Shown here piece by piece: positions 22,453 to 39,624 of a stretch of 64,000 nucleotides of DNA. The notes below the pieces were generated by a model that was not told where the DNA came from, did no database searches, and was given only the letters and a program-made list of their open reading frames with translations. Each line of letters begins with the position of its first letter. The first letter of the stretch is position 1. Source of the stretch: Candidatus Aminicenantota bacterium (GTDB taxonomy: Bacteria > Acidobacteriota > Aminicenantia > Aminicenantales > UBA4085); contig PLMN01000010.1 of NCBI GenBank assembly GCA_003141555.1, positions 1 through 64,000 of the forward strand. Reading direction: 5' to 3'. A program made the position numbers and the translations under genes.

Positions 22453-22461
22453 GGCGCCCTC

Positions 22462-22467
22462 ATTATA
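22462..22467 (-). promoter_or_regulatory. -10 box in front of the CCA-adding enzyme gene
   Basis: A perfect TATAAT on the minus strand, 9 nt before the ATG at 22452. The -35 region (TTCAAT at 17-nt spacing) is poor, so the assignment is tentative; if right, the mRNA has almost no leader. Confidence 0.4.
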
Positions 22468-22680
22468 AATGATTTCCGGGGCCGATTGAAAACTTGCTTT
22501 TGCCCGGAATCCGAATTAATATTATTCTCAAAAGAGGATTATCCGTGCTTGACGGGGGCGATTTTTGCCGTTCGGGGAAAAGGGCGTTCCTCGCGAGCTC
22601 GTCGCTATCTAATCGCCGAAGGAAGATCTCGCGGTTCGGACTGCCGGATACGGTGGGAAGATGATCATGGGAAAGGGCGC

Positions 22681-25047
22681 ATGAGGCCCCCCAAGAAAAA
22701 AAACGTTCCTCCCGATGCCGTCCCTCCGGCGGCGGGCTCGCCCGGGGCTGCGTCACCTGCGCAAGCAGGTTCTGGAATGCGCAGGCAGGCGGAGGAGATC
22801 GCCCGGACAAAAGACGCCCCGTCCCGGGAAAGCCTCGAGGCGCTGTCGCCCGAAGAAGCGCGGCGGACGCTCCATGAGCTGCGGGTTCACCAGATCGAGC
22901 TGGAGATGCAGAACGAGGAGCTGCGCCGGACGCAGGCGGAGCTGGACACCGCGCGGGCGCGCTATTTCGACTTGGACGACCTGGCCCCGATGGGCTATTG
23001 CACCGTCAATGAGCAAGGGCTGATCCTGGAGGCCAACTTCACGGCCGCGATTTTGTTGGGCGTAGCCCGGGAGGCGCTGGTCAAGCAGCCGTTCTCCCGG
23101 TTCGTCCTCAAAGAGGACCAGAGTGCCTTCTTCCGGCTCTACAAACAGCTCTTTGAGACCGGCGCGCAGGTCTGCGAATTGAGGATGCTCCGTCGGGACG
23201 GCCCTCATTTCAGGGCGCGGATCATGGCGACCGCCGCTCGGGACGCCGCGGGGGCATCCGTGTGCCGCGTCGTGTTGAGCGACATCACCGCCCAAAATAT
23301 TATCCTGGAAGCGTTCCATCGGAAAGGGCAGGAATCGCGGGAGACGAACGGCGATGGGATCCATTTCGACCGTGCCGTCGCGCCCGATCCGCAAAGTCCG
23401 CCGGTCAGGGGTTCCGAAGAGCCCCTCGACATCCTGCTCTTGGAAGACGAACCGCCGCACGCCGAATCCATCAAACGGGCGTTCCTTGATGCCGATCTGA
23501 AGACGGCCATCCGCTGGGTCCAGACTCTGAGGGATTATCACGCCCTCGTGGCCGATCACCCGCCGGATATCGCCATTGTCGATATCGAATTGCCGGACGG
23601 GAATGCGACGAACGTTCTGACCTCGCCGCCTGCGGCCGGCCCCTTCCCCATTCTGATCTTGAGCGGCCACGGCGATGAGCGGATTGCGGTGGAGGCGATG
23701 AAGGCGGGCGCGATCGATTATGTCGAGAAGTCCTCCGGGTCTTTTGCCGACATCCCCCATATCGTCGAGCGTTCCCTTCGCGAGTGGGATCTGCTCCAAG
23801 CCCGCAAACGGGCGGAAGAGACGCTGCGCCGGATGGAAGAGAATTTTCGCTGCTCGCTGGACGATTCGCCGCTCGGCGTGCGGATCATGACCGCGAACGG
23901 CAAGACGCTGTACGCCAACCGGGAGCTGCTGGACTATTATGGCTTCGACCGCTTCGAGGACTTCGACAAAAAATCCCTCCGGGAGCGCTACACGCCCCAG
24001 AGCTATGCCGAGTTCCAAATCCGGAAGCAAGTCCGGGAACGGGGTGAGTTCGGCCCGACGGAATATGAAATCTCCATCGTCCGGACAAACGGCGAGATCC
24101 GCCATCTCCAGGTTTTTCGCAAAGAGGTCTTTTGGAACGGCGAACGACAGTTCCAGGCGCTCTATCGCGACATCACCGAGGAGAAGAAGCGAGGCGAAGC
24201 CCTGAGGCTGTCCGAGGAGACGATCCAGGGCCAAAAGACGCTCTTGGAGCGGCAAAGCATATCCGTGGAAGAACTGATCGGCCGATTGACCCGCTCCCGG
24301 GAAGACCTCGCCGCTTCGTACGCGGCCTTGAAGGCGAACAAAGACGAGCTGGTTCGTTCGGAGAAGCTCGCCTTTACCGGCCGGATGGCGGCCGGCATCG
24401 CCCATGAGATCCGAAATCCCCTGACCAACATCGTTTTATCTCTTCGCCAACTCCAGAAGGCGGGCCGAATAAAGCCGGAGAATCTTCCCTATGCCGAAAT
24501 CATGGAGAGAAATTCCCGGAGGATCGAATATCTGGTCACGGAACTTCTGAACTGCGCCCGTCCGATAAAACTGGACCTTCTGCCTTGGGATATCCATCGG
24601 ATCATCGAAGATGCCCTGAATCTTCTGAACGTCAGGCAAAAAATGCAGAGGATCATCGTGACGAAGAGCCTGACCGATCAGCCCTCGATCCTGCCCGCGG
24701 ACAAGGAATATCTGGGGCGCGTTTTCCTGAACATTCTCAGCAATGCGATCGAGGCCATGCCCCACGGCGGCGCCTTGTCGATCGACACGATTCGAGATGC
24801 GGACTATTTCCGGATCCGGATCCGGGATGAAGGAATCGGCATACCGGAAAAGAACCTGATCCGGATCTTCGATCCTTTCTTCAGCACCAAGAAAGGAGGC
24901 ACGGGTTTGGGATTGTCCACCTGTCAAAATATCGTGACCAGCCATGGGGGCTTGATCGAGGTCGAAAGCGCTTGGAGGAAAGGATCCACCTTCACGGTTT
25001 CCCTACCGCTCGGATTCAAGCCGCTCGATCGCAGCCAAGATCTTTGA
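22681..25047 (+). CDS. Hybrid sensor histidine kinase (PAS-REC-PAS-HisKA-HATPase)
   Basis: A 788-residue soluble kinase with no transmembrane segment, so probably a cytoplasmic sensor. Order: coiled coil ~45-95, PAS ~92-210, receiver ~249-365 with phospho-acceptor Asp301 in IVDIELPDG, PAS ~385-500, a long helix, HisKA with His575 in AHEIRNPL, N box NILSNAIEAM, and ATP lid DEGIG and GTGLGL. An internal receiver upstream of the kinase core is unusual. ATG 22681 follows GGGAAAGG; the frame is open far upstream but that part is antisense to the CCA-enzyme gene. It heads a kinase-receiver-NtrC set directly before the gas vesicle genes and probably controls them. Confidence 0.92.
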   Translation: MRPPKKKNVPPDAVPPAAGSPGAASPAQAGSGMRRQAEEIARTKDAPSRESLEALSPEEARRTLHELRVHQIELEMQNEELRRTQAELDTARARYFDLDDLAPMGYCTVNEQGLILEANFTAAILLGVAREALVKQPFSRFVLKEDQSAFFRLYKQLFETGAQVCELRMLRRDGPHFRARIMATAARDAAGASVCRVVLSDITAQNIILEAFHRKGQESRETNGDGIHFDRAVAPDPQSPPVRGSEEPLDILLLEDEPPHAESIKRAFLDADLKTAIRWVQTLRDYHALVADHPPDIAIVDIELPDGNATNVLTSPPAAGPFPILILSGHGDERIAVEAMKAGAIDYVEKSSGSFADIPHIVERSLREWDLLQARKRAEETLRRMEENFRCSLDDSPLGVRIMTANGKTLYANRELLDYYGFDRFEDFDKKSLRERYTPQSYAEFQIRKQVRERGEFGPTEYEISIVRTNGEIRHLQVFRKEVFWNGERQFQALYRDITEEKKRGEALRLSEETIQGQKTLLERQSISVEELIGRLTRSREDLAASYAALKANKDELVRSEKLAFTGRMAAGIAHEIRNPLTNIVLSLRQLQKAGRIKPENLPYAEIMERNSRRIEYLVTELLNCARPIKLDLLPWDIHRIIEDALNLLNVRQKMQRIIVTKSLTDQPSILPADKEYLGRVFLNILSNAIEAMPHGGALSIDTIRDADYFRIRIRDEGIGIPEKNLIRIFDPFFSTKKGGTGLGLSTCQNIVTSHGGLIEVESAWRKGSTFTVSLPLGFKPLDRSQDL

Positions 25048-25072
25048 GGGGAGTCCAGCCGGGGGGAACGGA

Positions 25073-25729
25073 ATGAAGGCCGACGCGAGGTGGGATATCA
25101 AATTGGGCGGCAGCGTCTATCACCATGTCCCGAACGCCCGCCTGAGGCGCTGGATCAAGACCGGCAAGATCAAAGTCGGCGAAGCGGTCGTCTGCCTCGC
25201 CGATTCGTCCGACTGGCGCAAACTCGAAGACATGGACGACCTTCGGCCTTTAATTAAGCTTCAGGCTACGGCCTCCAAGAAAAGAAAAAGGTCCTTGTCG
25301 GCGGAAAAGGCCGGCCCCGGGCGGAAGCGGATTCAAAGCATTCTGCTCATCGACGACGAGAAGGACTTGTGCGCTCTGTTGGGGAATGCCCTCAGCTCTC
25401 GGGGCTTCCAGATGGAGTACGCCCATACGCGCGGAGAGGCGCTGAAGTGCCTGGCCGGGCGGCGGCCGGACCTTATTTTGTTGGATCTCAGTCTCCCCGA
25501 CGGCGACGGCCTGGCGTTGCTGTCCCATTTACGGAAAACGAGGCCCGCGCCCGCCGTCATCATCACGACCGCCTTCGGCAGCGAAGAAGTCCGGAGCGAA
25601 GCCGAGAAATTGGGCGCCTCGGGCTTTCTGGACAAGCCGTATGATGAAGAGGACGTCATTCGCAAGATACGAAAGATCGGCATTCCGGACGGCCAATGGG
25701 GCCCCCGCGGCGCCGAAACGGGTGGATGA
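25073..25729 (+). CDS. Response regulator receiver with N-terminal GYF-like domain
   Basis: A 218-residue protein. The N-terminal 60 residues (VYHHVPNARLRRWIKTGKIK...WRKLEDMDDL) resemble small GYF_2-like modules seen in bacterial signalling proteins; this is a loose match. A lysine-rich linker leads to a receiver domain from ~88 (SILLIDDEKDL), phospho-acceptor Asp138 in LILLDLSLPDGDG, and the conserved Lys in FLDKPYDEED. No output domain follows. It sits between the hybrid kinase and the NtrC-type regulator and overlaps the latter (ATGA), so it may be a phosphorelay intermediate. Confidence 0.85.
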   Translation: MKADARWDIKLGGSVYHHVPNARLRRWIKTGKIKVGEAVVCLADSSDWRKLEDMDDLRPLIKLQATASKKRKRSLSAEKAGPGRKRIQSILLIDDEKDLCALLGNALSSRGFQMEYAHTRGEALKCLAGRRPDLILLDLSLPDGDGLALLSHLRKTRPAPAVIITTAFGSEEVRSEAEKLGASGFLDKPYDEEDVIRKIRKIGIPDGQWGPRGAETGG

Positions 25730-27096
25730 AAATGGAAACCATTCTCATTGTCGATGATGATCAGGATTTCCGATTCAATCTGTCCACGATTTTGACGGGC
25801 GCGGGATATGAAGTCCGGACCGCGTCCACCGGCCATCAGGCGATCAAGGACGTCGCCCGATGCGCCCCCAGCCTCGCCTTATTGGATTTCCGGCTTCCGG
25901 ATATGGACGGGATCAAAGTCTTTGAAGGGATGCGAAAAATCGATCGGGATCTGATCGCCATCATGGTGACCGGCTATGGCGACGTCAAGGGCGCGGTCTT
26001 GGCCATGAAAATGGGGGTCCATGACTATATCGCCAAGCCCTTTGATGAGGAAGAGCTGATCTTGATCATTCAAAAGGCCTTGGAGACCCGGAGCCTGAGC
26101 CAGGAGGTGGAGAGATTACGGACCCGCCTGGGAGAAAGCCGGGATGTCGAGGATTTCATGGGCAAGAGTCCCCGAATTCAACAGATCCTGAAACAGGTTG
26201 AGATTATCGCCCCGACGAACATGACCGTCGTCCTTCAGGGCGCCAGCGGAACGGGCAAAGAGCTGATCGCCCGGCGGATTCATTACTTGAGCCGGCGTCG
26301 GGATCGGCCTTTCGTAGCCGTCGATTGCGGCGCATTGCCCGAGACGCTGATGGAGAGCGAATTCTTCGGCTATGAAAAGGGCGCGTTCACGGGAGCCGAT
26401 GGCCGAAAAGACGGCCGGTTCGAGCAAGCCCAAGGCGGGACGCTTTTTTTGGATGAAATCGCGAATCTTTCCGAGGCCATCCAGATGAAGCTCCTTCGGG
26501 TTCTCCAGGAACGAAAAGTCCGGCATTTGGGCGGCCAGAAAGAAATCAACGTCGATGTGCGCATTCTCGTGGCCTCCAATTTTCTTCTCTCGGAGCAAGT
26601 CCGCCTGGGACGATTCCGGGAGGACCTCTTTCATCGGCTCAATGAGTTTCAAATCGCGCTGCCTCGATTGACCGAACGGATGGAGGACATTCCCGTTCTG
26701 GCGAAGTACTTCCGGGAGGGGGCGAACCGCGAGTTTCACAAGGACGTCAAGCATTTTTCGCCGGAGGCCATGAAAGGCATCCTGCATTATGCCTGGCCGG
26801 GCAATGTCCGGGAGTTCATGAACATCATCCGCCGCGCGGTCCTGCTGGCGGACTCGGACACGATCGAGCTCGACCAGCTGTTCATGAATCCGATCCCTTC
26901 GACGAGCGGGGCGAATGATGAGACCGCGAAGCCCCTGGACAAGGGCGCGTCTTTCGAGGAGATCACCCGGAATTTTGAGATGGACGTCATTCGGAAGGCC
27001 TTGAAGGAAGCGGGCGGGAAAAAAGCAAAGGCGGCGGAGCTTTTGAAGCTGAATAAAAAAACCCTCTATCGCAAACTCAAAAGCATGAATATATAG
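25726..27096 (+). CDS. NtrC-family sigma-54-dependent response regulator
   Basis: A 456-residue enhancer-binding protein. Receiver 4-118 with phospho-acceptor Asp54 (LLDFRLPDMDG); sigma-54 AAA+ domain ~145-370 with Walker A GASGTGKE at 172-179, the sigma-54-contacting GAFTGA loop at 219-224 and Walker B TLFLDEIA; Fis-type helix-turn-helix at the C terminus (AAELLKLNKKTLYRKLKS). The ATG at 25726 overlaps the previous stop. Two near-perfect -24/-12 promoters lie downstream in the gas vesicle operons and a third before the OMP gene at 43740, so this protein is the obvious candidate activator. Analogous NtrC-like control of gas vesicles is known in Serratia. Confidence 0.95.
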   Translation: MKMETILIVDDDQDFRFNLSTILTGAGYEVRTASTGHQAIKDVARCAPSLALLDFRLPDMDGIKVFEGMRKIDRDLIAIMVTGYGDVKGAVLAMKMGVHDYIAKPFDEEELILIIQKALETRSLSQEVERLRTRLGESRDVEDFMGKSPRIQQILKQVEIIAPTNMTVVLQGASGTGKELIARRIHYLSRRRDRPFVAVDCGALPETLMESEFFGYEKGAFTGADGRKDGRFEQAQGGTLFLDEIANLSEAIQMKLLRVLQERKVRHLGGQKEINVDVRILVASNFLLSEQVRLGRFREDLFHRLNEFQIALPRLTERMEDIPVLAKYFREGANREFHKDVKHFSPEAMKGILHYAWPGNVREFMNIIRRAVLLADSDTIELDQLFMNPIPSTSGANDETAKPLDKGASFEEITRNFEMDVIRKALKEAGGKKAKAAELLKLNKKTLYRKLKSMNI

Positions 27097-27109
27097 ACAA
27101 TTCTGCCCT
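27094..27109 (+). promoter_or_regulatory. Candidate upstream activator site 1 (gvp operon 1)
   Basis: TAGACAATTCTGCCCT. Its reverse complement, AGGGCAGAATTGTCTA, matches the dyad at 30394-30409 (AGGACAGAATTGTCCT) in 13 of 16 positions. A further ATTGTCCC lies at 27125-27132. The site is about 160 nt upstream of the predicted start of transcription, a normal range for a sigma-54 activator. It begins at the last codon of the NtrC gene. Confidence 0.55.
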
Positions 27110-27212
27110 TTTTCTTGTCTCACGATTGTCCCTTTCCAGCTCAATCTGTCCGTCACGACTAAATAGACGGGCAAGATCGGGTCCTATAACGTTTATTCAC
27201 AGCGAGTTACGC

Positions 27213-27229
27213 AATTCCGGAGCGGAATT
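27213..27229 (+). repeat. Inverted repeat just upstream of the -24 element
   Basis: AATTCCG and CGGAATT flank a 3-nt centre (GAG), a perfect 7-bp dyad ending 7 nt before the -24 box of operon 1. An operator for a second regulator is possible; nothing else supports it. Confidence 0.45.
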
Positions 27230-27236
27230 CGCGGGT

Positions 27237-27252
27237 TGGCACCGTTATTGCT
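27237..27252 (+). promoter_or_regulatory. Sigma-54 promoter of gvp operon 1
   Basis: TGGCACCGTTATTGCT carries the invariant GG and GC at the correct 12-nt offset and the TGGCAC/TTGCT consensus. Predicted transcription start near 27262, about 50 nt before the GTG of the first gvp gene. Confidence 0.88.
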
Positions 27253-27312
27253 AATAAGATAAGAGTCCGGGCGGTGGCAAGTGTTTTATGCCGCCGGGAA
27301 AGAGGGTGCCGG

Positions 27313-28128
27313 GTGGAAGGCTTCTATTTGTATTGCGTGAGGAAGAGCGGCGGGCCGTCTGTCGGCTTCGCCACCAAAGGCATCGATGAAAAGGGAGAGG
27401 TCTTCACCCGGACTTTTCAGGGATTGGAGGCCGTCATCAGCCGGGTGCCCTTGGAGGAATTCGATTCCGATATCGTCCGAAACAAGGCCCGAAACGATCT
27501 CTCCTGGATCAAGAACATGGCCGTTCTTCATGAGGCGGTCATCGAAGAAGCGATGAGAGGGCCCGGGGAAATCTTGAGTTTGATCCCCTTGAAATTCGGG
27601 ACGATATTTAAAGACGAGCATGCGCTCGAAGCAACCTTGGCCGAACACTACGAACAATTCCAGGAGACGTTGGATCGGCTGACGGGAAAGCAGGAATGGG
27701 GCGTCAAGGCGTATTTGACGGATCAACAAATGTTCGAGCAGTCGGTCAAGGAGGACAATGCGGCCATCCGGAAAAAGGCGGGAGAAATGGCGGGGCTGCC
27801 GGAGGGCATGGCTTTTCTGATGGAGGAAGAGTTCAACGACTTCGTTTCCCGCGAAGCGAACAAGGCCTTGGATCTTCTGGCCGAGGGCTTGACCGAAAGC
27901 TTAGGCCGGTATGCCGAAGCCGTGGTCCTGAGTCCCAGTTTGGGGAAGGAATTGACGGGCAAGCGCGAGCCCATGGTGTTCAATGCCGCCTGTTTGGTCC
28001 GGAGCGGGACCATCGAAGAATTTCGAGAAGCGGCCCGCCAACTCCTGGGGGAAATCCGGGAAAAAGGACTGGACCTCGAGGTCAGCGGTCCCTGGCCGGC
28101 CTATCATTTCGCGACGCTCGAAAAATAG
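27313..28128 (+). CDS. gvpF: Gas vesicle protein GvpF/GvpL family (GTG start)
   Basis: GvpF/L proteins are minor shell or assembly factors that interact with GvpA. The 271-residue product opens GFYLYCVRKSG, the family start, and has the conserved middle region LHEAVIEEAMRGPGEILSLIPLKFGTIF and C-terminal LEVSGPWPAYHFA. GTG 27313 is preferred because a GAGGG site lies 6 nt before it; a GTG at 27274 is in frame but lies only about 12 nt after the predicted transcription start. It heads operon 1 and is one of four family members in the cluster. Confidence 0.9.
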   Translation: MEGFYLYCVRKSGGPSVGFATKGIDEKGEVFTRTFQGLEAVISRVPLEEFDSDIVRNKARNDLSWIKNMAVLHEAVIEEAMRGPGEILSLIPLKFGTIFKDEHALEATLAEHYEQFQETLDRLTGKQEWGVKAYLTDQQMFEQSVKEDNAAIRKKAGEMAGLPEGMAFLMEEEFNDFVSREANKALDLLAEGLTESLGRYAEAVVLSPSLGKELTGKREPMVFNAACLVRSGTIEEFREAARQLLGEIREKGLDLEVSGPWPAYHFATLEK

Positions 28129-28137
28129 GATACAAGG

Positions 28138-28680
28138 ATGAGTCATTCGACTTCCCGTGATGAGTCCGTCGGGCTGGTTGACGCCTTGGATCGAGTCTTG
28201 GATAAAGGGGCGATCGTCCAGGGCGACATCGTCCTCCAGGTCGCGGACGTCGACCTTGTCTATTTGGGCTTGCGACTGATTTTGACCTCGGTCTCCCGGG
28301 CGGAAGAGCTCTCCGGCAAGAATTTCGGCCATCCGGAACGGGCGTTGACCCCAGAGGACATGGCTTATATCGAGAACCTGCAAAGGGAGATCCGAAGAGC
28401 GGAGGAGAACATCCCCAAGCTCATCGACTTGGGCCATCCCAAAAAGGCCGAGGCGGGGTTGGCCAAATTGGTTTTGACCCTCGTCGAACTGATCCGGAAG
28501 CTCATGGAGAAGGAAGCTTTTCGGAGAGTCAAGAAGGGGACCCTGTCTTCCGGCGAAATCCAAAAGCTGGGATTGAGTCTGAAAGCGGTCAAGAAAAAGA
28601 TTCAAGAAATCCAAACGATTTTCGGTCTCGAGGACGAAGACCTGGACCTGGATTTGGGACCGTTGGGAAATTTGATGTGA
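28138..28680 (+). CDS. gvpK: Fused GvpJ/GvpA-like and GvpK gas vesicle protein
   Basis: A 180-residue protein with two parts. Residues 10-58 (LVDALDRVLDKGAIVQGDIV...VYLGLRLILTSV) match the GvpA/GvpJ shell-protein fold. After a charged linker, residues 105-178 match GvpK: KLVLTLVELIRKLMEKEAFR, GTLSSGEIQKLGLSL, FGLEDEDLDLDLGPLG. GvpK alone usually lacks the first part, and in haloarchaea gvpJ and gvpK are adjacent separate genes, so this looks like their fusion. The reading frame is continuous with no frameshift signs. Lies 9 nt after gvpF. Confidence 0.85.
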   Translation: MSHSTSRDESVGLVDALDRVLDKGAIVQGDIVLQVADVDLVYLGLRLILTSVSRAEELSGKNFGHPERALTPEDMAYIENLQREIRRAEENIPKLIDLGHPKKAEAGLAKLVLTLVELIRKLMEKEAFRRVKKGTLSSGEIQKLGLSLKAVKKKIQEIQTIFGLEDEDLDLDLGPLGNLM

Positions 28681-28702
28681 CGAGAATAAGGAGAGCCATC
28701 CC

Positions 28703-28999
28703 TTGACCCAACAACAAATGATGCATGCCACGAATGCCACGAATCTGGCGGATATCCTTGAGCGGGTCCTGGACAAGGGCGTCGTCATCGCCGGAGACAT
28801 CAAAATTCAGATCGCTGATATCGACCTGCTCACCATCAAGATCCGGCTCTTGGTGGCGTCCGTGGACAAGGCCCTGGAGATGGGGATCAATTGGTGGCAG
28901 ACGGATCCCTATCTTTCCTCCAAAGCTCAAGACGCGGAGAACGCGGACAGAATCAAGAAGCTCGAAGACGAAGTCCACAAATTGAAAAGCGAAGCGTAG
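28703..28999 (+). CDS. gvpJ: Gas vesicle protein GvpJ (GvpA family), TTG start
   Basis: A 98-residue minor shell protein of the GvpA/J/M family. NLADILERVLDKGVVIAGDI and LTIKIRLLVASVDKALEMGI match the amphipathic shell core, and the WWQTDPYLSS extension and acidic/lysine-rich tail are typical of GvpJ rather than GvpA. The TTG at 28703 has an AAGGAGAG site 7 nt upstream; an in-frame ATG at 28718 would shorten it by five residues. Confidence 0.88.
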   Translation: MTQQQMMHATNATNLADILERVLDKGVVIAGDIKIQIADIDLLTIKIRLLVASVDKALEMGINWWQTDPYLSSKAQDAENADRIKKLEDEVHKLKSEA

Positions 29000-29014
29000 C
29001 TCGCCGAGAAACAA

Positions 29015-29704
29015 ATGAGAACTCTTCTTTGCGTTCCGATCATCCACACGAGCGCCGATCTGGGCTCCCTGGCCCCCGAGGTCCATCGAAGAGGCCTTGA
29101 AAATTTCGGCGAAGACACGTGGAGAGATCATTTGGAGACGATCGACGGCTTCTGGGACGCGCTCTCCGCCTACTTCGACTCGATCCCCGTCTCCGGGGCG
29201 AAGATTTTCCAGGACGGCATGATCGCGGATGGGGAATTGGGTTTGAAGATCGTCCAGGAAGTGGAAAAGGCGGGCAGCAAAAATCACCGATTGATTTCCC
29301 GGCTTCTTCAGAAAGGGGCGATCTTGATGAGGACGGAAGATTTCGCCCTGGTCAAGAAAGAGCGGGACCATCTGCTGAAAATCATCCAGGCCAAAACGAC
29401 CGTGCGGAAATTCCTCGCCTTGATCGTCTACAAGCTCAGTAAGAAAAGGCTTTTGAGGCAAAGGGACGCGTCCATCGCCCAAAGGATCGACCAGGCTTTG
29501 GGGGAGGGCGAAACCGGGATCCTCTTCATCGGCGCCTATCACAACATCATGCCGAGGCTTGCCCGGGACATCCGCATCCAAGAAATCAGGGACGTCCGAA
29601 AAATCAGGGAATACCAATCCCTCCTGTCCTCCTATCCGAAGCATCAAAAACGGTTCGCGGGCTTGAGCCGGTATCTTATTTCCAAGGTTGGAGAGGGAGC
29701 ATGA
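29015..29704 (+). CDS. Conserved protein of unknown function in gvp operon 1
   Basis: A 229-residue soluble protein. The start MRTLLCVPIIHTSADLGSLA and a late GILFIGAYHNIMPRLARDI are reminiscent of the His-containing strands of the TraB/PrgY-type fold, but the match is too weak to name. It has no signal peptide or transmembrane segment and is rich in charged helices. Placed between gvpJ and a receiver protein, with ATGA overlap to the latter, it is surely co-expressed with gas vesicle genes. Not a recognised Gvp protein. Confidence 0.75.
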   Translation: MRTLLCVPIIHTSADLGSLAPEVHRRGLENFGEDTWRDHLETIDGFWDALSAYFDSIPVSGAKIFQDGMIADGELGLKIVQEVEKAGSKNHRLISRLLQKGAILMRTEDFALVKKERDHLLKIIQAKTTVRKFLALIVYKLSKKRLLRQRDASIAQRIDQALGEGETGILFIGAYHNIMPRLARDIRIQEIRDVRKIREYQSLLSSYPKHQKRFAGLSRYLISKVGEGA

Positions 29705-30156
29705 GCGAAAGAAATCCCTTCAACATCATGTTGATCGAAGACGACCCGGCGCACACCGAGATCGTGGCGCGCAAGCTCCAGGACTTTCCCGTCGCGAACC
29801 GCTTCTTTCCGGTCAAAGACGGGCGGAAAGCGCTGGACATTCTTTTTCGCAACGGCGCCGGCGCCGATCCCGAAGCCGTCCCCCAGCCGGACTTGATCCT
29901 CCTGGATAAGTGCCTGCCCAAAGTAGACGGCCTGGAAGTGCTGCGGCTGATCAAGAATGATGCGAGCCTCAAGCGGATTCCGGCGGTCATGCTGACGACG
30001 TCCGACGACATGGTGGACATCGAGGCCGCTTACGGCGTGGGCGCCGGCAGCTACCTGATCAAGCCCGCCAATTTCGAGAAATTCGACAAGCTCCTGGACG
30101 CTTTATGTTCTTACTGGCTGACCTGGAACAGAATCTCGGGTCGCAACGGGGGCTGA
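29701..30156 (+). CDS. Single-domain response regulator (Rcp1/CheY-like)
   Basis: A 151-residue receiver with acidic pair in IMLIEDDPAHTEIV, phospho-acceptor Asp in LILLDKCLPKVDG, Thr in VMLTTSDD and Lys in YLIKPANFEKF. The extra loop before the Asp (about 10 residues) is typical of Rcp1-like receivers that work with phytochrome-type or other soluble kinases. Last gene of gvp operon 1; ATGA overlap with the unknown gene. No output domain. Confidence 0.92.
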   Translation: MSERNPFNIMLIEDDPAHTEIVARKLQDFPVANRFFPVKDGRKALDILFRNGAGADPEAVPQPDLILLDKCLPKVDGLEVLRLIKNDASLKRIPAVMLTTSDDMVDIEAAYGVGAGSYLIKPANFEKFDKLLDALCSYWLTWNRISGRNGG

Positions 30157-30611: not shown

Positions 30612-30818
30612 ATGGCCGTAGAAAAAGCGATCGGATCTTCCAGCTTGGTTGAGGTTATCGACCGGATCCTGGACAAGGGAGTGGTTGTGGACGCATGGGT
30701 GCGCGTGTCCCTGGTCGGGATCGAGATCCTCGCCGTTGAGGCGAGAGTCGTCATCGCGTCGGTGGAGACGTACCTGAAGTATGCTGAGGCGATCGGTTTG
30801 ACCGCAACCGCCGCGTAA
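30612..30818 (+). CDS. gvpA: Major gas vesicle shell protein GvpA
   Basis: GvpA polymerises into the hollow gas-permeable ribs of the vesicle. The 68-residue product begins [20 protein letters not shown] and continues [20 protein letters not shown] and [20 protein letters not shown], close to the consensus along its whole length. The ribosome-binding site AAAGGAGGTGA (30595-30605) is the strongest in the cluster, fitting very high expression. First gene of operon 2. A long inverted repeat follows it. Confidence 0.98.
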
Positions 30819-30931: not shown

Positions 30932-31663
30932 ATGCCTTCAACCCAACCGATGGAAAATGTCACCGGGAATATGGTCGCGTCCTTTGAGGCGGGCAGCCAG
31001 AGCATTGAATCCCTTTTCGACGCCGCCCACCAAATCCTCGAAGGCTTCCAGAACTCCTTCTTCGATACACGCCAGGAAAGGGAACACATCAACGCCCAGC
31101 TGCGGGAGAATCTCACGGCCAATGAATCCCTCCGCCGAAAAGATTTCGATCTGATGATGCAGGACATTCTTTCCGCCCAGGAAGACAGAGAACGGCATGT
31201 CCGGGAGGAGCTGAACATGTACCTGGCCGATCAGAGGGAGATGATCCGCTCGTTGGGTGAGAACTTGGCGAAGTTCAAGGACGCCCTGGCCGGAGGCGAG
31301 GCCCAAAGGGTCAAGGAATTCCAGACCTTGCTGCAGGGGATCCTGGCTGCCCAGGACGAGCGAAAGAACAAAGTGACCTCGGAGCTGAAGGAATTCCAAA
31401 TCCAACAACAGGAGCTGGCTATAACGCTCAAAGGGCTATTGGCCAAGGGCCGGGAGCTTCGGATCAAGGACCTGAAAAGGATGCTGGGGGAATTCCGGTC
31501 ACAGCGCCAGGAGCGCATCGTCGCGCAGGGAGAACGCCGGAAAGGCGTTCGCGACATGCTGGAGGAAAGCCAAAAAGAACGGTCCGCCGAGGCCAAGAAC
31601 CGGCAGGAGCTGCAAAAAAAGGCGATTCAAGCCAGAACCAGTCCGGACGGACCGGGAAAATAG
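30932..31663 (+). CDS. Coiled-coil repeat protein, possible GvpC-like shell or assembly factor
   Basis: A 243-residue, almost wholly alpha-helical, Gln/Glu/Arg/Lys-rich protein. A motif of the form R-x-K-D/E-F/L-x-x-L/M-L/M recurs at about 68, 126 and 177 (RRKDFDLMMQDILSAQ, RVKEFQTLLQGILAAQ, RIKDLKRMLGEFRSQ), so the protein is built of three ~50-58-residue units. It follows gvpA directly, where gvpC lies in cyanobacteria. It is not a confident GvpC; the next gene fits that better. The start is uncertain: ATG 30932 or ATG 30950. Confidence 0.7.
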   Translation: MPSTQPMENVTGNMVASFEAGSQSIESLFDAAHQILEGFQNSFFDTRQEREHINAQLRENLTANESLRRKDFDLMMQDILSAQEDRERHVREELNMYLADQREMIRSLGENLAKFKDALAGGEAQRVKEFQTLLQGILAAQDERKNKVTSELKEFQIQQQELAITLKGLLAKGRELRIKDLKRMLGEFRSQRQERIVAQGERRKGVRDMLEESQKERSAEAKNRQELQKKAIQARTSPDGPGK

Positions 31664-31704: not shown

Positions 31705-32439
31705 ATGGGAATGGTCGAAGATTTTGGAATACTCACGAACGATATCGTGAAGTCGTATAATGTCCGGATCATGGGCTTGGGGGCGATCGCCGACGGGACG
31801 CGCGCCTTGGCCAAGAATACCCAGGGCATGCTCAAGCGGTTCCACGCCGAGCATCAGGACATGTCCGCCCGCCAGGCTAAGGCCTTGGGCGGATTCATGA
31901 GCGACCTGAAAAAGAGCGTGGACGGCATGCTCAAGCGATTCCGGACTAAGCATCAGGACATGTCCGCCGAGCAAGCCAAGGCGCTGGCCGGCTTCATGTC
32001 CGGCTTGACGGCAAACCTGGGCAAGCTGATGAAGAAATTCCAGAAAGAACACCAGATCATGACCGCCGGGCTTGACGTCAGCGCCGTGGCGCTCAAGAAG
32101 AGCCTGGCGAAAAGCACCCGGGACCTCGAGACGTCCGTTAAAAGCTGGCTCCAGGAATTTTCCGACGCCCATGCGGAGATGAGCGAAGGGCTGAAGAGCG
32201 ATCTGGCCAAATACGTGGCGGATCTCGTGAAGGGGACCCAGGGGCTGTTGGGGGAGTTTCTCAACAACCGGGAGAATATGGCGGCTCAGTGGCGGGCTAT
32301 GGCCTCGACGCTGGCTCATAAGCGGGGCGCGGCGGCGGTCGACGTGGCGGGCGCTGAGACCGTGAAGACCGTGAAACAAGCCATCAGAAAACCCGTGGTC
32401 CGAAAAGCCGGGACAAAGGGCAAAGGGAAAAAGTCCTAA
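31705..32439 (+). CDS. gvpC: Candidate GvpC: five 33-residue helical repeats
   Basis: A 244-residue protein. From residue 41 it consists of repeats of exactly 33 residues: 41-73, 74-106, 107-139 (then a 7-residue insertion), 147-179 and ~180-210. Repeats 1 and 2 are nearly identical, each starting GMLKRF and containing HQDMSA and QAKAL. Residues 8-40 may be a degenerate sixth unit. GvpC of cyanobacteria has 33-residue helical repeats and binds the outside of the GvpA shell to strengthen it; period, composition and position after gvpA fit. The tail is lysine-rich. ATG 31705 has an AAGGAGAG site upstream. Confidence 0.75.
   Translation: MGMVEDFGILTNDIVKSYNVRIMGLGAIADGTRALAKNTQGMLKRFHAEHQDMSARQAKALGGFMSDLKKSVDGMLKRFRTKHQDMSAEQAKALAGFMSGLTANLGKLMKKFQKEHQIMTAGLDVSAVALKKSLAKSTRDLETSVKSWLQEFSDAHAEMSEGLKSDLAKYVADLVKGTQGLLGEFLNNRENMAAQWRAMASTLAHKRGAAAVDVAGAETVKTVKQAIRKPVVRKAGTKGKGKKS
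31825..32334 (+). repeat. 99-bp tandem repeats inside the gvpC candidate
   Basis: Units at 31825-31923, 31924-32022, 32023-32121, 32143-32241 and 32242-~32334. The first two are similar at DNA level, the rest mainly at protein level, which suggests an old internal duplication with one recent copy. Confidence 0.8.
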
Positions 32440-32473: not shown

Positions 32474-32716
32474 ATGGATGTCCGATCGATCCCCTGTGCC
32501 TTCTGCAAGGGCGAGGGGGTCTATTCCCACACCCAGATCACCTGCACGGTTTGTCACGGCCAGGGCCGGGTGTCGGTCGAAGGACCGACCGTCGAGTGTC
32601 CGCAATGCCGGGGCACGGGCATGGAAGCGAAAAGCCGCCTGCCTTGTCTGGGATGCGGAGGCTTCGGCGTTCTGCCCCTGAAACAAGAAAAGGGAAGGCT
32701 GCCTCGAATTTCCTGA
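32474..32716 (+). CDS. Stand-alone DnaJ-type zinc-finger protein
   Basis: An 80-residue protein made almost only of four CxxCxGxG motifs: CAFCKGEG (8), CTVCHGQG (24), CPQCRGTG (42) and CLGCGGFG (58), the pattern of the DnaJ central domain that binds two zinc ions and helps hold unfolded substrates. No J domain or substrate-binding domain is attached. A J-like domain occurs on the GvpL protein encoded at 37034 in the same operon, so the two could act together. Confidence 0.85.
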   Translation: MDVRSIPCAFCKGEGVYSHTQITCTVCHGQGRVSVEGPTVECPQCRGTGMEAKSRLPCLGCGGFGVLPLKQEKGRLPRIS

Positions 32717-32736: not shown

Positions 32737-33732
32737 ATGAGCGATGAGATGACGACGGTCCTGCAGCCGAGTCCGTTGCCGGACTTCGTGGAAACGCAGT
32801 ATATCAAGGATATCACCGGGCGGGCGCTATGCTATGTTCAGGCCGGCTTCCCGGTGCATTTCCGGGGCGTCTCCGGCACGGGCAAGACGACGCTCGCCCT
32901 GCATCTCGCGAGCAAAATCAACAGGCCGGTGGTCATGCTTCACGGCGACGATGAATTCACCACGTCCGATCTGGTCGGCGGCGAATACGGCTATCGGATC
33001 CGGAAGATCGTGGACCGGTTCGTCTCCCGCGTGACCAAGATGGAAGAGGATATGGTGAAGCGCTGGGTCGACAATCGCCTGACGGTGGCCTGCAAGCATG
33101 GGTTCACTCTGATCTATGACGAGTTCACCCGTTCGCGGCCCGAAGCAAACAACATCCTTCTCTCCATCCTGCAGGAGAAGATGATGGATCTGCCGGCGGG
33201 CCGGGGCGGAGACGAGCCGTACCTGAAAGTCCACCCGAATTTCACGGCCATCTTCACGTCGAACCCCGAGGAATATGCCGGAGTCCATCGGAGTCAGGAC
33301 GCTTTGAGGGACCGGATGATCACGCTCGACGTGGACCACTTCGATTATGAGACGGAGGTGGCCATCACCCAGGCCAAGTCCAAGCTTCCGACGGCTCAGG
33401 TCAAGCTCATCGTCAACATCGTCCGGGGGCTCCGGGACTCCGGGAAGTCGGAGTTCGAGCCCACGGTCCGGGGCTGCATCATGATCGCCAAAACCCTGAA
33501 AGTCCAGGGCCTGGCGCCTTCTCCCTCCGAATCCTTCTCGAGGATGTGCCAGGACATCCTGGCCTCGGAGACGAGCCGGGTCGGCTCGAAGACAAACCAG
33601 GCTCGGGTCAAGGACATCGTCAAGGAGATCGTGCAAAGCGAGATGGGCCAGGCTTCCCGGGCCAAGAGCGGGAAGATGGACGGGCCTCCCAAGACGGCCG
33701 CGGCCGTCCCACCGAAAGCGGCCGTCATGTAG
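32737..33732 (+). CDS. gvpN: Gas vesicle AAA+ ATPase GvpN
   Basis: GvpN is a MoxR-related AAA+ ATPase needed for vesicles to grow beyond small bicones. The 331-residue product has Walker A GVSGTGKTTLALHLA at about residue 45, the family stretch LHGDDEFTTSDLVGGEYGY, Walker B FTLIYDEFTRSRPEANN, and a sensor-1 region FTAIFTSNPEEYAG. A long alanine/proline-rich tail is extra. ATG 32737 follows AAGAGAGGA. Confidence 0.96.
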   Translation: MSDEMTTVLQPSPLPDFVETQYIKDITGRALCYVQAGFPVHFRGVSGTGKTTLALHLASKINRPVVMLHGDDEFTTSDLVGGEYGYRIRKIVDRFVSRVTKMEEDMVKRWVDNRLTVACKHGFTLIYDEFTRSRPEANNILLSILQEKMMDLPAGRGGDEPYLKVHPNFTAIFTSNPEEYAGVHRSQDALRDRMITLDVDHFDYETEVAITQAKSKLPTAQVKLIVNIVRGLRDSGKSEFEPTVRGCIMIAKTLKVQGLAPSPSESFSRMCQDILASETSRVGSKTNQARVKDIVKEIVQSEMGQASRAKSGKMDGPPKTAAAVPPKAAVM

Positions 33733-34322: not shown

Positions 34323-34856
34323 ATGGGCGAAGAAAAAAAGAAGAGAGATAAAGAGAAGGTGAACGTCGATTTCGGATTGGGAACGCTGGGCCTGGGAGGG
34401 CTATTCCAGGGCATCGAAAAATTGGTGGACTTGGCCGCGGACCTGAATGAGAAAGGCGGCGCCATCCATAAAGAAGGGGAGATCGACCTCGGCCATCTGA
34501 AGGAAGGCATGAAGGGGGTGTTCGGCTTTTCCATCAAGAGCGCCATCGGCGGAAAACCGATCGTGGAATCCTTCGGCAACATCAAGAAAACGCCTCAGGG
34601 GCCCAAGATTGAAGAGGAACGGGAACCGATCACCGACGTTTTCGATGAGAAGGGAGAAGTCGTGGTGATGGCCGAGATGCCGGGCATTCGGGACGAGGGG
34701 ATTTCCGTCGATTTGAAGGGAGATATCCTGGCCATCAAGGGAACGAACAAACACCGGAATTATTATAAGGAAGTCCTCCTCCCCGCCAAGGTCAAGCCGG
34801 GGACCCTGACCTCGAATTACAAGAACGGCGTGTTGGAAGTCAGGATCAAGAAATGA
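34323..34856 (+). CDS. gvpH: Hsp20-like gas vesicle protein GvpH
   Basis: A 177-residue protein. The N-terminal half ([20 protein letters not shown]) resembles the Gvp-specific part of GvpH; the C-terminal half is an alpha-crystallin/Hsp20 domain: [40 protein letters not shown] and [10 protein letters not shown]. GvpH is a small heat-shock-like accessory protein in gas vesicle clusters. AGGAG site before the ATG. Confidence 0.88.
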
Positions 34857-34878
34857 CGCTCTCAGGCGGATGGCCCTC

Positions 34879-37041
34879 ATGAGTCCCAAGAAGGACGACA
34901 TCACCCTCACCCTGAAAGTGCAGGAAGCGCTCTCGAAGGATGTGGGCCGGGCGATCGCCCGGATCGATCCGGAAGACATCAAGGCTCTCGGATTGGCGGT
35001 GGGCGATATCATCGAAATCGACGGGAAGAGGAAGGCCCCGGCCAAGATCATGCCCTGCTATGCCGAAGAGAGGGGCAAGAAGATCGTCCAGATCGACGGC
35101 CTGTTGCGGGAAAACGCCCAGATCGGGCTGGACGAGAAGGTCCGGATTCGCGGCATTTCTTCGCAACCCGCCGGGAAAATCGTCCTCTCGCCCCTCACCC
35201 TGTCCGGCCTTCCGCAGAAGGACAGCGACACGAAATATATCGGGTCGCTGATGGAAGGGCTTCCGGTGACGACCGGGGACCGCATTCGAGCGACGCTCTT
35301 TGGATCCCGATCATGCGATTTCAAGGTCGTCGATACGACCCCCGGGGGCGTGGTGTCGATCAGCGCCGCAACGTCCATCCGCATGGAGACCGGCAAAAAG
35401 GGAGAGGCCAAGGCGGCCCGGATTTCCTATGAGGACATCGGCGGACTCGGCCAGCAGATCCAGAGAATCCGGGAGATGATCGAGCTCCCGTTGAAATACC
35501 CCCAGGTGTTCGAACGCCTGGGGATCGATGCCCCCAAGGGCGTCTTCCTCTATGGGCCTCCGGGCACGGGCAAAACCCTGATCGCACGGGCGGTGGCCAA
35601 CGAGACGGACGCGTACTTCACCCACATCTCGGGCCCCGAGATCATGGGCAAGTTTTACGGCGAAAGCGAAGGCCGCCTGCGAAGCCTCTTCGAGGACGCG
35701 CAAGCCCACGCCCCGGCCATCATTTTCATCGACGAAATCGACGCGATCGCGCCCAAGAGGGAGGAGATGGGCGGGGAGAAGCAGGTGGAGAGGCGCGTGG
35801 TGGCCCAGCTCCTGTCCCTCCTCGACGGCTTGGAGTCGCGCGGCCAGATCATCGTCATCGGCGCGACGAACATTCCCAACACCATCGATCCCGCGCTGAG
35901 ACGGCCCGGTCGGTTCGACCGGGAAATCTCGATTCCCATCCCCGACAAAAACGGGAGATTGGAAATTCTCGGCATCCACACCCGGGGGATGCCCCTCGCG
36001 GGCGACATCCGCCTCGAAAAGCTGGCCGAGATCACACACGGATTCGTCGGAGCGGATCTCGAGGCCCTGGCCCGGGAGGCCGCGATGTCGGCCCTGCGCA
36101 AGGTCCTGCCCCAGATCGATTTTGAAATGGCCGAAATCCCCTATGAAATCATGACGAATTTGGAAGTCGTCATGGACAACTTCCTGGAAGCGATGAAGGA
36201 AGTCGAGCCTTCGGCCATCCGCGAAGTCTTCGTCGAGGTTCCGGACGTCAAGTGGAGCGACGTCGGCGGCTTGGGAAGCATCAAGGAGGAGCTGAAAGAA
36301 GCGGTGGAGTGGCCGCTCAAATATTCCGAGATCTTCAAAAAGGCCGGCACGAATCCCCCCAAGGGGATGCTTCTCTACGGCATTCCGGGAACGGGCAAGA
36401 CGCTCCTGGCCAAGGCCGTCGCCACGGAAAGCGGAGTCAATTTCATCTCCGTCAAAGGCCCGGCCCTGATCTCCAAATTCGTAGGGGAAAGCGAAAAGGC
36501 GATCCGCGAGGTCTTCAAGACGGCCAAGCAGGCTTCGCCCACGATCCTGTTCTTTGACGAGATCGACAGCCTGGTCCCCCGACGAGGCTCGAGCTCCACG
36601 GACGCCCATGTCACGGAGCGGGTGATCAGCCAATTCTTGACCGAGATGGACGGGATCGAGGAGCTCAAAGGCGTGATCGTCCTGGCCGCGACCAATCGAA
36701 TGGACCTGATCGACCCGGCGCTCCTGCGGAGCGGCCGGTTCGACCTCCTGCTGGAGTTGCCCAAGCCGGACGTCCAGGCCCGGGAGGAGATCTGGAAGAT
36801 CCACACCCGGAACAAGCCGCTGGACAAGGATGTGGATCCCCGGCAAATGGCCGAAGACAGCGACGGCCAGGTCGGGGCCGATATCGAATTCGTCTGCCGC
36901 AAGGCGTCGATGCTCGCGATCCGGGAATATATCGAGAATCAGAAATCCAAGACCAAGGCCTCCAAGGCGGACCTCCGAATCTCGAAAAGGCATTTCCAGG
37001 AGGCCTTGAAAATCATGGCTCGGAGGAAGTCCCATGGCTGA
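34879..37041 (+). CDS. CDC48/VAT-type double AAA+ ATPase in gvp operon
   Basis: A 720-residue protein with the CDC48 N domain ([20 protein letters not shown], double-psi barrel) at 1-~180, a first AAA domain with Walker [16 protein letters not shown] and Walker [16 protein letters not shown], and a second with [15 protein letters not shown] and [15 protein letters not shown]; arginine fingers lie in [10 protein letters not shown] and [10 protein letters not shown]. Hexamers of this family unfold or remodel protein complexes; full-length CDC48 homologues are common in archaea and less so in bacteria. The start may be ATG 34870. It overlaps gvpL by 8 nt, so a role in vesicle assembly or turnover is likely. 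Confidence 0.93.
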
Positions 37042-38089
37042 GAGCGGGAAATACATTTACGGGATCATCAATTCCAATACCCGTGTCCAGCTGACGATCC
37101 CGAAGTCGTTGCTGCCCGAGGCGAACGATGAGCCGGCGGCCGCGTACACGATTCCCCATCAGGACCTGGCGGCCCTGGTCCGGGATTGCGCCGACGCCGG
37201 CCCCCTCCCCCGGACCCAAGAGACGCTGGCCCGGCTGCTCGTCGGCCATCAGGCGGTGATCGAAAAAATCATGGCCCAAGGGACGACCGTCATTCCCATG
37301 AAATTGGGCACCTATGCCCGCGATGAAAGCGAGGTCAAGGCGATTCTGGATAAGGGATATCCCCTGCTCAAAGAGATCATGACCAAGATCGTGGACAAGA
37401 TCGAAATCGACGTCGTCGCGACGTGGAGCCATTTCAACTCCCGGGTCAAAGACGCGGGCGAAGACAAGGAGATCAGGGAATTCAAGGAAAAGCTCCTGAG
37501 CCAGCCCGGCGGACCGACCGTGAATGACCAGATGAAGATCGGGCTCATGATCAAGAAGGCCCTGGATGAAAAGCGGGCCGGCGTGACCCGGGACATTCTG
37601 GATCGCCTTCAAGCCATCAGCGAGGAGGTGCGGATTCACGACCTGATGGATGACCGGATGGTGATGAACGCCGCTTTTTTGATCGCCCGGGTCAGGCATC
37701 AGGACTTCGAGGCCAAGGTCGAAGAGCTCAACCGGACCTCGCGGGAGGAGCTCGATTTCCGGTGCGTCGGCCCGCTTCCTCTCTACAGCTACTATACCCT
37801 CGAGGCTAAAAAACTGCGCTATGAGGAAATCGAGCGGGCCCGGAGGATGCTCGGACTTCTCCAGGAGACAGCCACCCGGGGCGAGATCAAAAACGCGCAT
37901 CGGGCCCTGGCGTTTTCCTCCCATCCCGACACCCGGTCCGACGCTCCCCCCTTCGAAGGGAAATTTGATGAGATCACCCGGGCCTATCACCTCTTGTCGG
38001 AATATTGCCGGACGGAGAGCTGTTCGTTCAAGGAGGCTGAATTCCCCCAGAATGCCCTGGTGATCAAAGTCCTCGGCTCTCCGTCCTGA
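37034..38089 (+). CDS. gvpL: GvpL/GvpF gas vesicle protein fused to a J-like domain
   Basis: A 351-residue protein. Residues 5-260 are a GvpF/L domain: [11 protein letters not shown] at the start, [18 protein letters not shown], and a C-terminal [16 protein letters not shown]. Residues ~270-330 then read like a J domain: two helices around [17 protein letters not shown], with the HPD tripeptide at 297-299, followed by [14 protein letters not shown] domains stimulate Hsp70; if functional it would recruit DnaK to the vesicle assembly site. Strong GGAGG site before the ATG. Confidence 0.82.
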
Positions 38090-38104
38090 AGCATCAGGAT
38101 CCCC

Positions 38105-38875
38105 ATGTCCCAAGACGGCTATTATATCTACGGCATCATCCGTTCAGCCCAGGATCGATATTTCGGCCCGATCGGCATCGGCCCCCGGGGCGACGAGGTC
38201 CGGACGATCGGGGCGGACAATTTGAGCATGGTGGTCAGCCACCATCCCCTGGCCAAATTCGCGGTCAGCCGGGAGAATCTGATCGCCCACGAACGGGTGA
38301 TCGAAGAGGTGATGAAGGAGTTCGACAGCGTGCTGCCCGTCCGGTTCGGGACGATCGCTTCGAGCGCCGATGAAGTTCGGAATCTCCTGGAGCGAAGATC
38401 CGGAGAGTTCAAGAATCTCCTGAACGCCGTGGACCATAAGATCGAATTGGGCGTGAAGGCGATCTGGAAGGACCTGAAGACGATTTACCGGGAAATTGCC
38501 GTCGAAGACAAGGACATCAAGCGGGCCCAGGAAGAGCTCAGGAACGCCAAGGGGAAAAGGAATTTCGGGGTCCAGCTCGAAATAGGCAAGCTCGTCGAAG
38601 ACGCCCTGGCGAGGAAAAAGGAAAAAGAACGAGACGGCGTGGCCCAGACCCTCCGAAAGATCGCCTTCGACTGCAAGCTGACGAAGACGTCCGGCGAGGC
38701 GATGTTCATGAACGCCTCCTTCCTGGTCAATAAAGGCCGGGAAAAGGAATTCGACAACCTCATGGAGGATCTGACCGATCTCCATCGCGGCCGGATCCAG
38801 TTTCTCTATGCCGGGCCCTTGCCGGTCTTCAATTTCGTCAACGTCGAGATCCATCCCGAGGAGTGGGAAAAGTGA
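38105..38875 (+). CDS. gvpF: Gas vesicle protein GvpF/GvpL family
   Basis: A 256-residue family member: YYIYGIIRSAQDRYFGPIGI, then HERVIEEVMKEFDSVLPVRF, FNEPLM-type helix region (FDNLMEDLTDLH) and GRIQFLYAGPLPVFNFVNVE at the end. Closely related to the next gene, so tandem duplication is likely. The stop overlaps the GTG start of that gene. Confidence 0.93.
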   Translation: MSQDGYYIYGIIRSAQDRYFGPIGIGPRGDEVRTIGADNLSMVVSHHPLAKFAVSRENLIAHERVIEEVMKEFDSVLPVRFGTIASSADEVRNLLERRSGEFKNLLNAVDHKIELGVKAIWKDLKTIYREIAVEDKDIKRAQEELRNAKGKRNFGVQLEIGKLVEDALARKKEKERDGVAQTLRKIAFDCKLTKTSGEAMFMNASFLVNKGREKEFDNLMEDLTDLHRGRIQFLYAGPLPVFNFVNVEIHPEEWEK

Positions 38876-39624
38876 CCGGCCAATACATCTACTGCATCAT
38901 CGGATCCGGCCGGCCGGAGTCGTTCGGCCCTTGGGGGATCGGCGCCCAGGGCGAGGAGCTGACCACGGTCTGCCGTCAGGATATCGCCGCGGTCGTGAGC
39001 CGTTCCCCGATGATCAAATACGCCCTCTCCCGGGACAACATGATCGCCCATGAAAAAGCCATCGAGGAGGTCATGAAGCGCCACGACGTTCTGCCGGTCC
39101 GGTTCTCCACGATCGCGGAGGATGAGGGGAAAATCGGCCGGATCCTGGAGAAAGAACACGACCGTTTCGCGGAGCTGTTGAAGACGATGACCGGGAAAAC
39201 GGAGCTGAGCGTCATCGCCATCTTCAAGGAAGACGTCGTCTACAAGGACATCGCCGAGAACTATCGGGACATCCGCGCCTTCAAGGAAAAAATCGCCGGA
39301 CTTCCACCCGAGAAGGCCCGCGGACCGCTGATGGAAATCGGGCGGAGGGTGGAAGCCGCCCTGGGCCGGGAAAGGGAGATTTACAAGGACGAGATCCTGA
39401 AGGCGTTGACGGCCTTGTCCTGCGACGTGAAGGTCAACGACAACTATGGGGAGCTGATGATCCTCAAGGCCGCTTTTTTGGTCGAGCGGCGCCGGGAAGC
39501 GGAATTCGACCGGGCGGTGAATGACTTGGCCGAGAAATACGCGGGCAAAATCCGGTTCAAATACGTCGGGACGCTGCCGCCGTTCAATTTCGTGAACCTG
39601 GCGATCGATACGGGGAATTACTGA
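38872..39624 (+). CDS. gvpF: Gas vesicle protein GvpF/GvpL family, GTG start
   Basis: A 250-residue paralogue of the preceding protein: GQYIYCIIGSGRPESFGPWG, HEKAIEEVMKRHDVLPVRFS and KIRFKYVGTLPPFNFVNLAI. GTG 38872 overlaps the previous stop and has GAGGAG 7 nt upstream, so it is preferred over GTG 38863. GvpF/L proteins in other species bind GvpA and may keep it soluble or nucleate shells. Confidence 0.93.
   Translation: MTGQYIYCIIGSGRPESFGPWGIGAQGEELTTVCRQDIAAVVSRSPMIKYALSRDNMIAHEKAIEEVMKRHDVLPVRFSTIAEDEGKIGRILEKEHDRFAELLKTMTGKTELSVIAIFKEDVVYKDIAENYRDIRAFKEKIAGLPPEKARGPLMEIGRRVEAALGREREIYKDEILKALTALSCDVKVNDNYGELMILKAAFLVERRREAEFDRAVNDLAEKYAGKIRFKYVGTLPPFNFVNLAIDTGNY

Follow-up and report, generated by a model that had tools for sequence, protein, structure and literature searches.

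A GvpC-like protein with five 33-residue helical repeats, divergent from cyanobacterial GvpC, in an aminicenantial gas vesicle cluster

GvpC determines how strong and how wide gas vesicles are and how they respond to ultrasound, and the open reading frame at 31705-32439 of the window (the whole stretch of 64,000 nucleotides analysed here) raises the question whether its 244-residue product is such a protein. The answer put forward here is that it very probably functions as the GvpC of its gas vesicle cluster and is probably a GvpC by distant descent, too. The frame itself, taken as a gene in the original prediction, is real: the ribosome-binding-like sequence AAGGAGAG lies just ahead of it and spacing to both neighbours is tight, the frame starting 41 nt past the upstream stop and ending 34 nt ahead of the next start. 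Around it, a complete gvp cluster was found, comprising GvpL/F, GvpK, a GvpJ/S type protein, GvpA, GvpN, an Hsp20/GvpH-like protein, CDC48 and more GvpL/F:

27274-28128, forward strand, GvpL/GvpF (profile match)
28138-28680, forward strand, GvpA-like domain fused to GvpK (profile match)
28703-28999, forward strand, GvpA-family minor protein of GvpJ/GvpS type (profile match)
30612-30818, forward strand, GvpA shell protein (alpha-2 identical to Anabaena in 10 of 11 residues)
30932-31663, forward strand, second helical repeat protein, 243 aa, lag 58/51 (a 46% identical relative adjoins gvpA in contig L003)
31692-31699, forward strand, ribosome-binding-like sequence
31705-32439, forward strand, GvpC-like repeat protein, 244 aa (ORF, repeat, helix and register analyses)
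32474-32716, forward strand, small zinc-finger protein of DnaJ type, separating the gvpC-like gene from gvpN (present in relatives, too)
32743-33732, forward strand, GvpN AAA ATPase (TIGR02640, 331.6 bits)
34323-34856, forward strand, Hsp20/GvpH-like protein (profile match)
34870-37041, forward strand, CDC48-type AAA ATPase of the cluster (profile match)
37034-39624, forward strand, three more GvpL/GvpF-like genes (sequence; relatives in gvp clusters)

With the order gvpA (30612), 243-residue helical protein (30932), GvpC-like protein (31705), zinc finger (32474) and gvpN (32743), the gene occupies the place between gvpA and gvpN that is the gvpC slot of Nostoc and Halobacterium, and it shares with cyanobacterial GvpC the adjacency to these two genes inside a gvp cluster. 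The closest gvp genes seen belong to a Nitrospirae MAG, L004 (GvpN 82%, CDC48 80%), and to the Bacteroidetes-filed contig L003 (GvpA 95%). Elsewhere in the cluster, the GvpA-like domain at 28138-28680 is N-terminal to GvpK, while the same two gvp genes are separate in, e.g., Spartinivicinus. A 229-residue protein at 29015-29704 has no significant family match; it reappears in the gvp clusters of several genomes and in those of Methylosinus and Methylocella. The zinc-finger protein at 32474-32716 carries the DnaJ-type CxxCxGxG motif, with relatives in L004 (several matches), L029, L032 and L034. Ahead of gvpA, response regulators, of NtrC type among others, are encoded along with a histidine kinase (21064-30156), a regulator-gvpA layout similar to that in L003, L008 and L020.

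The five 33-residue repeats with one 7-residue insertion, as originally described, were recovered, with starts at residues 32, 65, 98, 138 and 171 and, hence, spacings of 33, 33, 40 and 33:

31705-31797, forward strand, N-terminal segment, residues 1-31 (xxDxxxLxxDIxxSYxxR, common to relatives)
31798-31896, forward strand, repeat 1, residues 32-64
31897-31995, forward strand, repeat 2, residues 65-97
31996-32094, forward strand, repeat 3, residues 98-130
32095-32115, forward strand, 7-residue insertion, residues 131-137
32116-32214, forward strand, repeat 4, residues 138-170
32215-32313, forward strand, repeat 5, residues 171-203 (holds the shared LLxxFxxxRExxAAxW motif)
32314-32436, forward strand, basic tail, residues 204-244, with 12 K/R and 2 D/E (a winged-helix-like domain instead in four relatives)

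Self-identity at lag 33 amounts to 23.7% (z = 9.5; 0 of 3000 shuffles, with all lags considered). Significant values were also obtained at lags 66 and 73 (33 + 40). Repeats 1 and 2 are identical in 21 of 33 residues (64%) and every other pair in 6-11 (18-33%), and repeats 3, 4 and 5 each beat all 20,000 permutations in their fit to the profile of the first two. Tandem repeats of this length are a trait of cyanobacterial GvpC. Since the insertion corresponds to about two helical turns, the hydrophobic face is kept roughly in phase across it, and uneven spacing is no obstacle to a GvpC reading, as haloarchaeal GvpC repeats range from 32 to 40 residues (PMC9501494). The period as such, however, is weaker evidence than register and helical phase because it varies among relatives. 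Two of these were recognised by sequence (L003, 34%; L004, 32%) and further ones via their alignment. The two closest have repeats of 51 residues, while the lengths are 18 (and multiples) in L009 and L032 and 40/65 in L010, so that 33 is not a hallmark of the family. The argument that an exact 33-residue period proves a GvpC was dropped on account of these other periods.

A more telling comparison is afforded by the register. Nine repeat positions, 4, 11, 12, 15, 19, 23, 26, 30 and 33, are conserved in more than 90% of 91 GvpCs and make up the face binding helix alpha-2 of GvpA, and stabilisation is abolished by alanine changes of F, L and R residues of GvpC (Huber et al., PMC9994262). In the protein studied here, the hydrophobic columns of the repeat are 1, 4, 8, 11, 12, 15, 22, 26, 30 and 33, and at the nine positions, in the order given, the five repeats read LLLLL, MMLWL, LLMLL, FFFFF, HHHHR, SSTSA, QQLLW, LLALA and FFLYL. 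The cyanobacterial GvpA-binding register is thus shared at L4, 11/12, 15, 26, 30 and 33. For the face L4, F11, L12, R19, Q26, L30 and F33, 17 of 35 residues are identical and the rest mostly conservative; the conserved Arg19 is replaced by His in four of the five repeats, and Gln26 is retained in two. Phase 0 of the 33 possible is the unique best fit to the GvpC register (2.09 vs 0.54 for the runner-up). With all five repeats, the fit reaches p = 0.002 by column permutation and p = 0.017 when the hydrophobicity class is kept, while the three contiguous repeats alone give only p = 0.07-0.09 by class-preserving column permutation. Hence, the significance of the register is moderate.

The helical phase points in the same direction. 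Computed for residues 5-205, the hydrophobic moment has its maximum at 98.75°, or 3.65 residues per turn (0 of 2000 shuffles), exactly as in Nostoc GvpC, and at the coiled-coil angle it is about six times lower. The protein thus displays the single-faced amphipathic helix with a continuous hydrophobic stripe at 3.65 residues per turn, as required of a straight helix that rests on a surface. AlphaFold, proposed earlier as a check and supplied with a three-sequence alignment, returned an all-helix model at a mean pLDDT of only 45, a quality insufficient for fold searching, and hhalign placed repeat 5 in register (E = 0.013) with a probability of only 3%, three sequences giving it little power.

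It is very improbable that the protein is a general amphipathic helix, phasin- or apolipoprotein-like or a coiled coil, that does not act on the vesicle. Searches of Pfam, NCBIfam and PDB returned sub-threshold amphipathic-helix matches only; the top Pfam match is Apolipoprotein with E = 7e-5, yet it scores 23 bits against a cut-off of 90, and Nostoc GvpC, too, has a sub-threshold phasin match of similar strength. The stripe, moreover, repeats at 3.65 and not 3.5 residues per turn, and relatives are confined to gvp-bearing genomes: in the phylum sample, they occur in 6 of 9 GvpN-positive and 0 of 387 GvpN-negative genomes (hypergeometric p ~2e-11, hand-computed), located in gvp clusters and for the most part flanked by, or adjoining, gvpA and gvpN. 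Helical angle and this gvp-only distribution were the grounds for dropping the apolipoprotein and coiled-coil readings.

The presumptive partner surface is conserved as well. Alpha-2 of the GvpA at 30612-30818 equals that of Anabaena apart from V61I and retains Glu52 and Glu59, the residues at which GvpC docks according to the published model. In B. megaterium, an organism without GvpC, the corresponding GvpA stretch reads VDTWLRYAEAV.

Direct similarity to known GvpCs is faint. Neither PF01304 nor the NCBIfam GvpC models match the protein (PF01304 has a curated cut-off of 21 bits; the same tool gives Nostoc GvpC 160 bits), nor does the haloarchaeal repeat model PF05465; a PF01304 search of the whole genome gave a single 9-residue chance match elsewhere than the GvpC-like gene. 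With no curated model matched, the protein is filed as GvpC-like and not as a member of PF01304. Nostoc GvpC, taken as query from a plasmid record in which it was located with an Anabaena GvpC probe sequence, found the GvpC-like gene as sole match at E ≤ 10 in the whole 3.8-Mb genome, a weak match (E = 1.15) that is informative by rank and not by significance. In genome G015, the sole match of this query is the gene in the corresponding slot (E = 0.058). Smith-Waterman comparison of Nostoc GvpC with the 31705-32439 protein gave z = 8.2 against shuffles and 5.3 against class-preserving shuffles (0 of 300). No matches were obtained in a plasmid search with the GvpC-like protein or in a scan of viral contigs with Nostoc GvpC.

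A GvpC-like identity is thereby well supported: the gene slot, a repeat in register, a helix with a single hydrophobic face, the conserved GvpA alpha-2 surface and the strict gvp linkage all speak for it. To this extent the original prediction of a candidate GvpC has held, while its appeal to a matching period has lost weight, 33 not being conserved in relatives. The PF01304 signature is absent. Descent from cyanobacterial GvpC is probable, though not proven. Convergence, i.e., an amphipathic helix binding the GvpA shell as a functional analogue without such descent, is possible but on balance somewhat doubtful: it would account for the absence of a curated family match and for relatives with repeats of 18, 40/65 and 51 residues, and amphipathic helices also resemble the apolipoprotein and ApoLp-III models at sub-threshold scores, but it sits less well with the match to the GvpC consensus register, the unique whole-genome rank and a gene slot that is the same in distant groups.

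The second helical repeat protein at 30932-31663, overlooked in the original prediction, offers another candidate. Directly following gvpA and repetitive at lag 58 (z = 7.3), it belongs to a family better conserved between clusters (46% to L003; LRKKDFDxMM motif), and might be the main shell-stiffening GvpC, leaving the 31705-32439 protein an accessory role, e.g., at the tips or with GvpN during growth; haloarchaeal GvpC contacts GvpN, GvpO and GvpF, too (PMC9501494). This assignment is unlikely, however, as the hydrophobic moment is weak in this copy (p = 0.54), the match to Nostoc GvpC is poorer (class-shuffle z of 2.4 vs 5.3 for 31705-32439) and G175 has a copy of the family far from gvpA. 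Members of this neighbouring family have repeats of 33, 51 or 58 residues; the family (LRKKDFDxMMxxIL) recurs in other gvp clusters, in some of them across gvpA on its other side.

With the 31705-32439 protein as GvpC, it can be stated with high confidence, by analogy, that it would work as a shell-reinforcing protein. The analysis itself showed the position of the gene, its repeats with their register and helical phase, the conserved docking surface on GvpA and the restriction to gvp-bearing genomes; binding to GvpA, wrapping and stiffening are inferred by analogy with Anabaena (PMC9994262, PMC10185304) and Serratia (PMC4982088). The protein would form an amphipathic alpha-helical rod, ~170-200 residues long and almost unbroken, and its hydrophobic face would follow the alpha-2 helices that successive GvpA subunits of a rib turn outwards. 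With 49.5 Å of helix, one 33-residue repeat would span about four GvpA subunits and the five repeats about 20-25, and a rod following the ribs would render the shell thicker and stiffer and raise the collapse pressure.

Compared with cyanobacterial GvpC (Anabaena, Nostoc; PF01304), the protein has in common the 33-residue helical repeats (five in Anabaena), the register at 4, 11, 12, 15, 26, 30 and 33, the 3.65 residues per turn, the gvpA-gvpN slot and the matching GvpA alpha-2. It differs in lacking a PF01304 match, in the mostly His-substituted Arg19, in the strong divergence of repeats 3-5, in the 7-residue insertion and Lys-rich tail, and in an N-terminal segment with DIxxSYxxR, for which Nostoc GvpC shows no counterpart. 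Haloarchaeal GvpC (PF05465) shares the gvpA-gvpC-gvpN order and helical repeats of uneven spacing (32-40 residues, PMC9501494), and its extra C-terminal domain is paralleled in some relatives of the present protein; in contrast, there is no sequence match, its composition is acidic and it ends in a zinc finger, where a basic tail or a winged helix is found in the family described here. The GvpC of Serratia ATCC 39006 and other proteobacteria, likened here by published function, likewise occurs outside cyanobacteria and haloarchaea and raises collapse pressure, which drops from 0.43 to 0.14 MPa upon loss of gvpC in Serratia (PMC4982088). As GvpC had thus already been shown by mutant in Serratia, and gvpC homologues have been listed in seven proteobacteria (PMC4982088), the suggestion that the present protein would extend the range of GvpC beyond cyanobacteria and haloarchaea was overstated. 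Within the reach of the tools used, three things are new: the occurrence in other bacterial groups of a divergent family of GvpC-like proteins with variable repeat length, the paired second helical protein and the winged-helix-like tails on some members.

Standard annotation calls this family hypothetical, and its varied repeat lengths on an almost unchanged GvpA represent natural variants for engineering as well as a direct test of the proposed rule of one 33-residue repeat per four GvpA subunits. The relatives have in common DIxxSYxxR in an N-terminal segment and, as terminal motif, LLxxFxxxRExxAAxWRxM. The slot genes of Methylocella and Methylosinus are annotated as hypothetical, and their products resemble the GvpC-like protein in the core FxxDLxxxVxxL and the terminal motif A-x-x-W. 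A tentative and rather doubtful extension is that a large, unrecognised GvpC superfamily resides in the gvp clusters of non-cyanobacterial bacteria, with repeat length as a changeable ruler and DNA-binding-type tails on some members, tails which GvpC-type rods may have gained repeatedly. Lengths of 18, 33, 40, 51 and 58 residues would correspond to about 2, 4, 5, 6 and 7 GvpA subunits at 12.1-12.7 Å, a weak argument from arithmetic on five lengths; with repeats near whole subunit numbers and the face roughly in phase, the ruler reading would be that of one rib geometry with different step sizes.

Three minor observations concern individual genes. On a plasmid of Octadecabacter arcticus (L019, 5121-5948), an unannotated helical ORF lies between gvpA and gvpN, overlapped by the gene that is listed there, which has the opposite orientation. 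The zinc finger at the C-terminus of Halobacterium GvpC matches ROS_MUCR above cut-off. Winged-helix-like C-terminal domains with weak MarR matches, absent from the 31705-32439 copy, are found in L003 (6001-6900), L004 (141-1034), L032 (6302-7525) and L035 (11127-11543).
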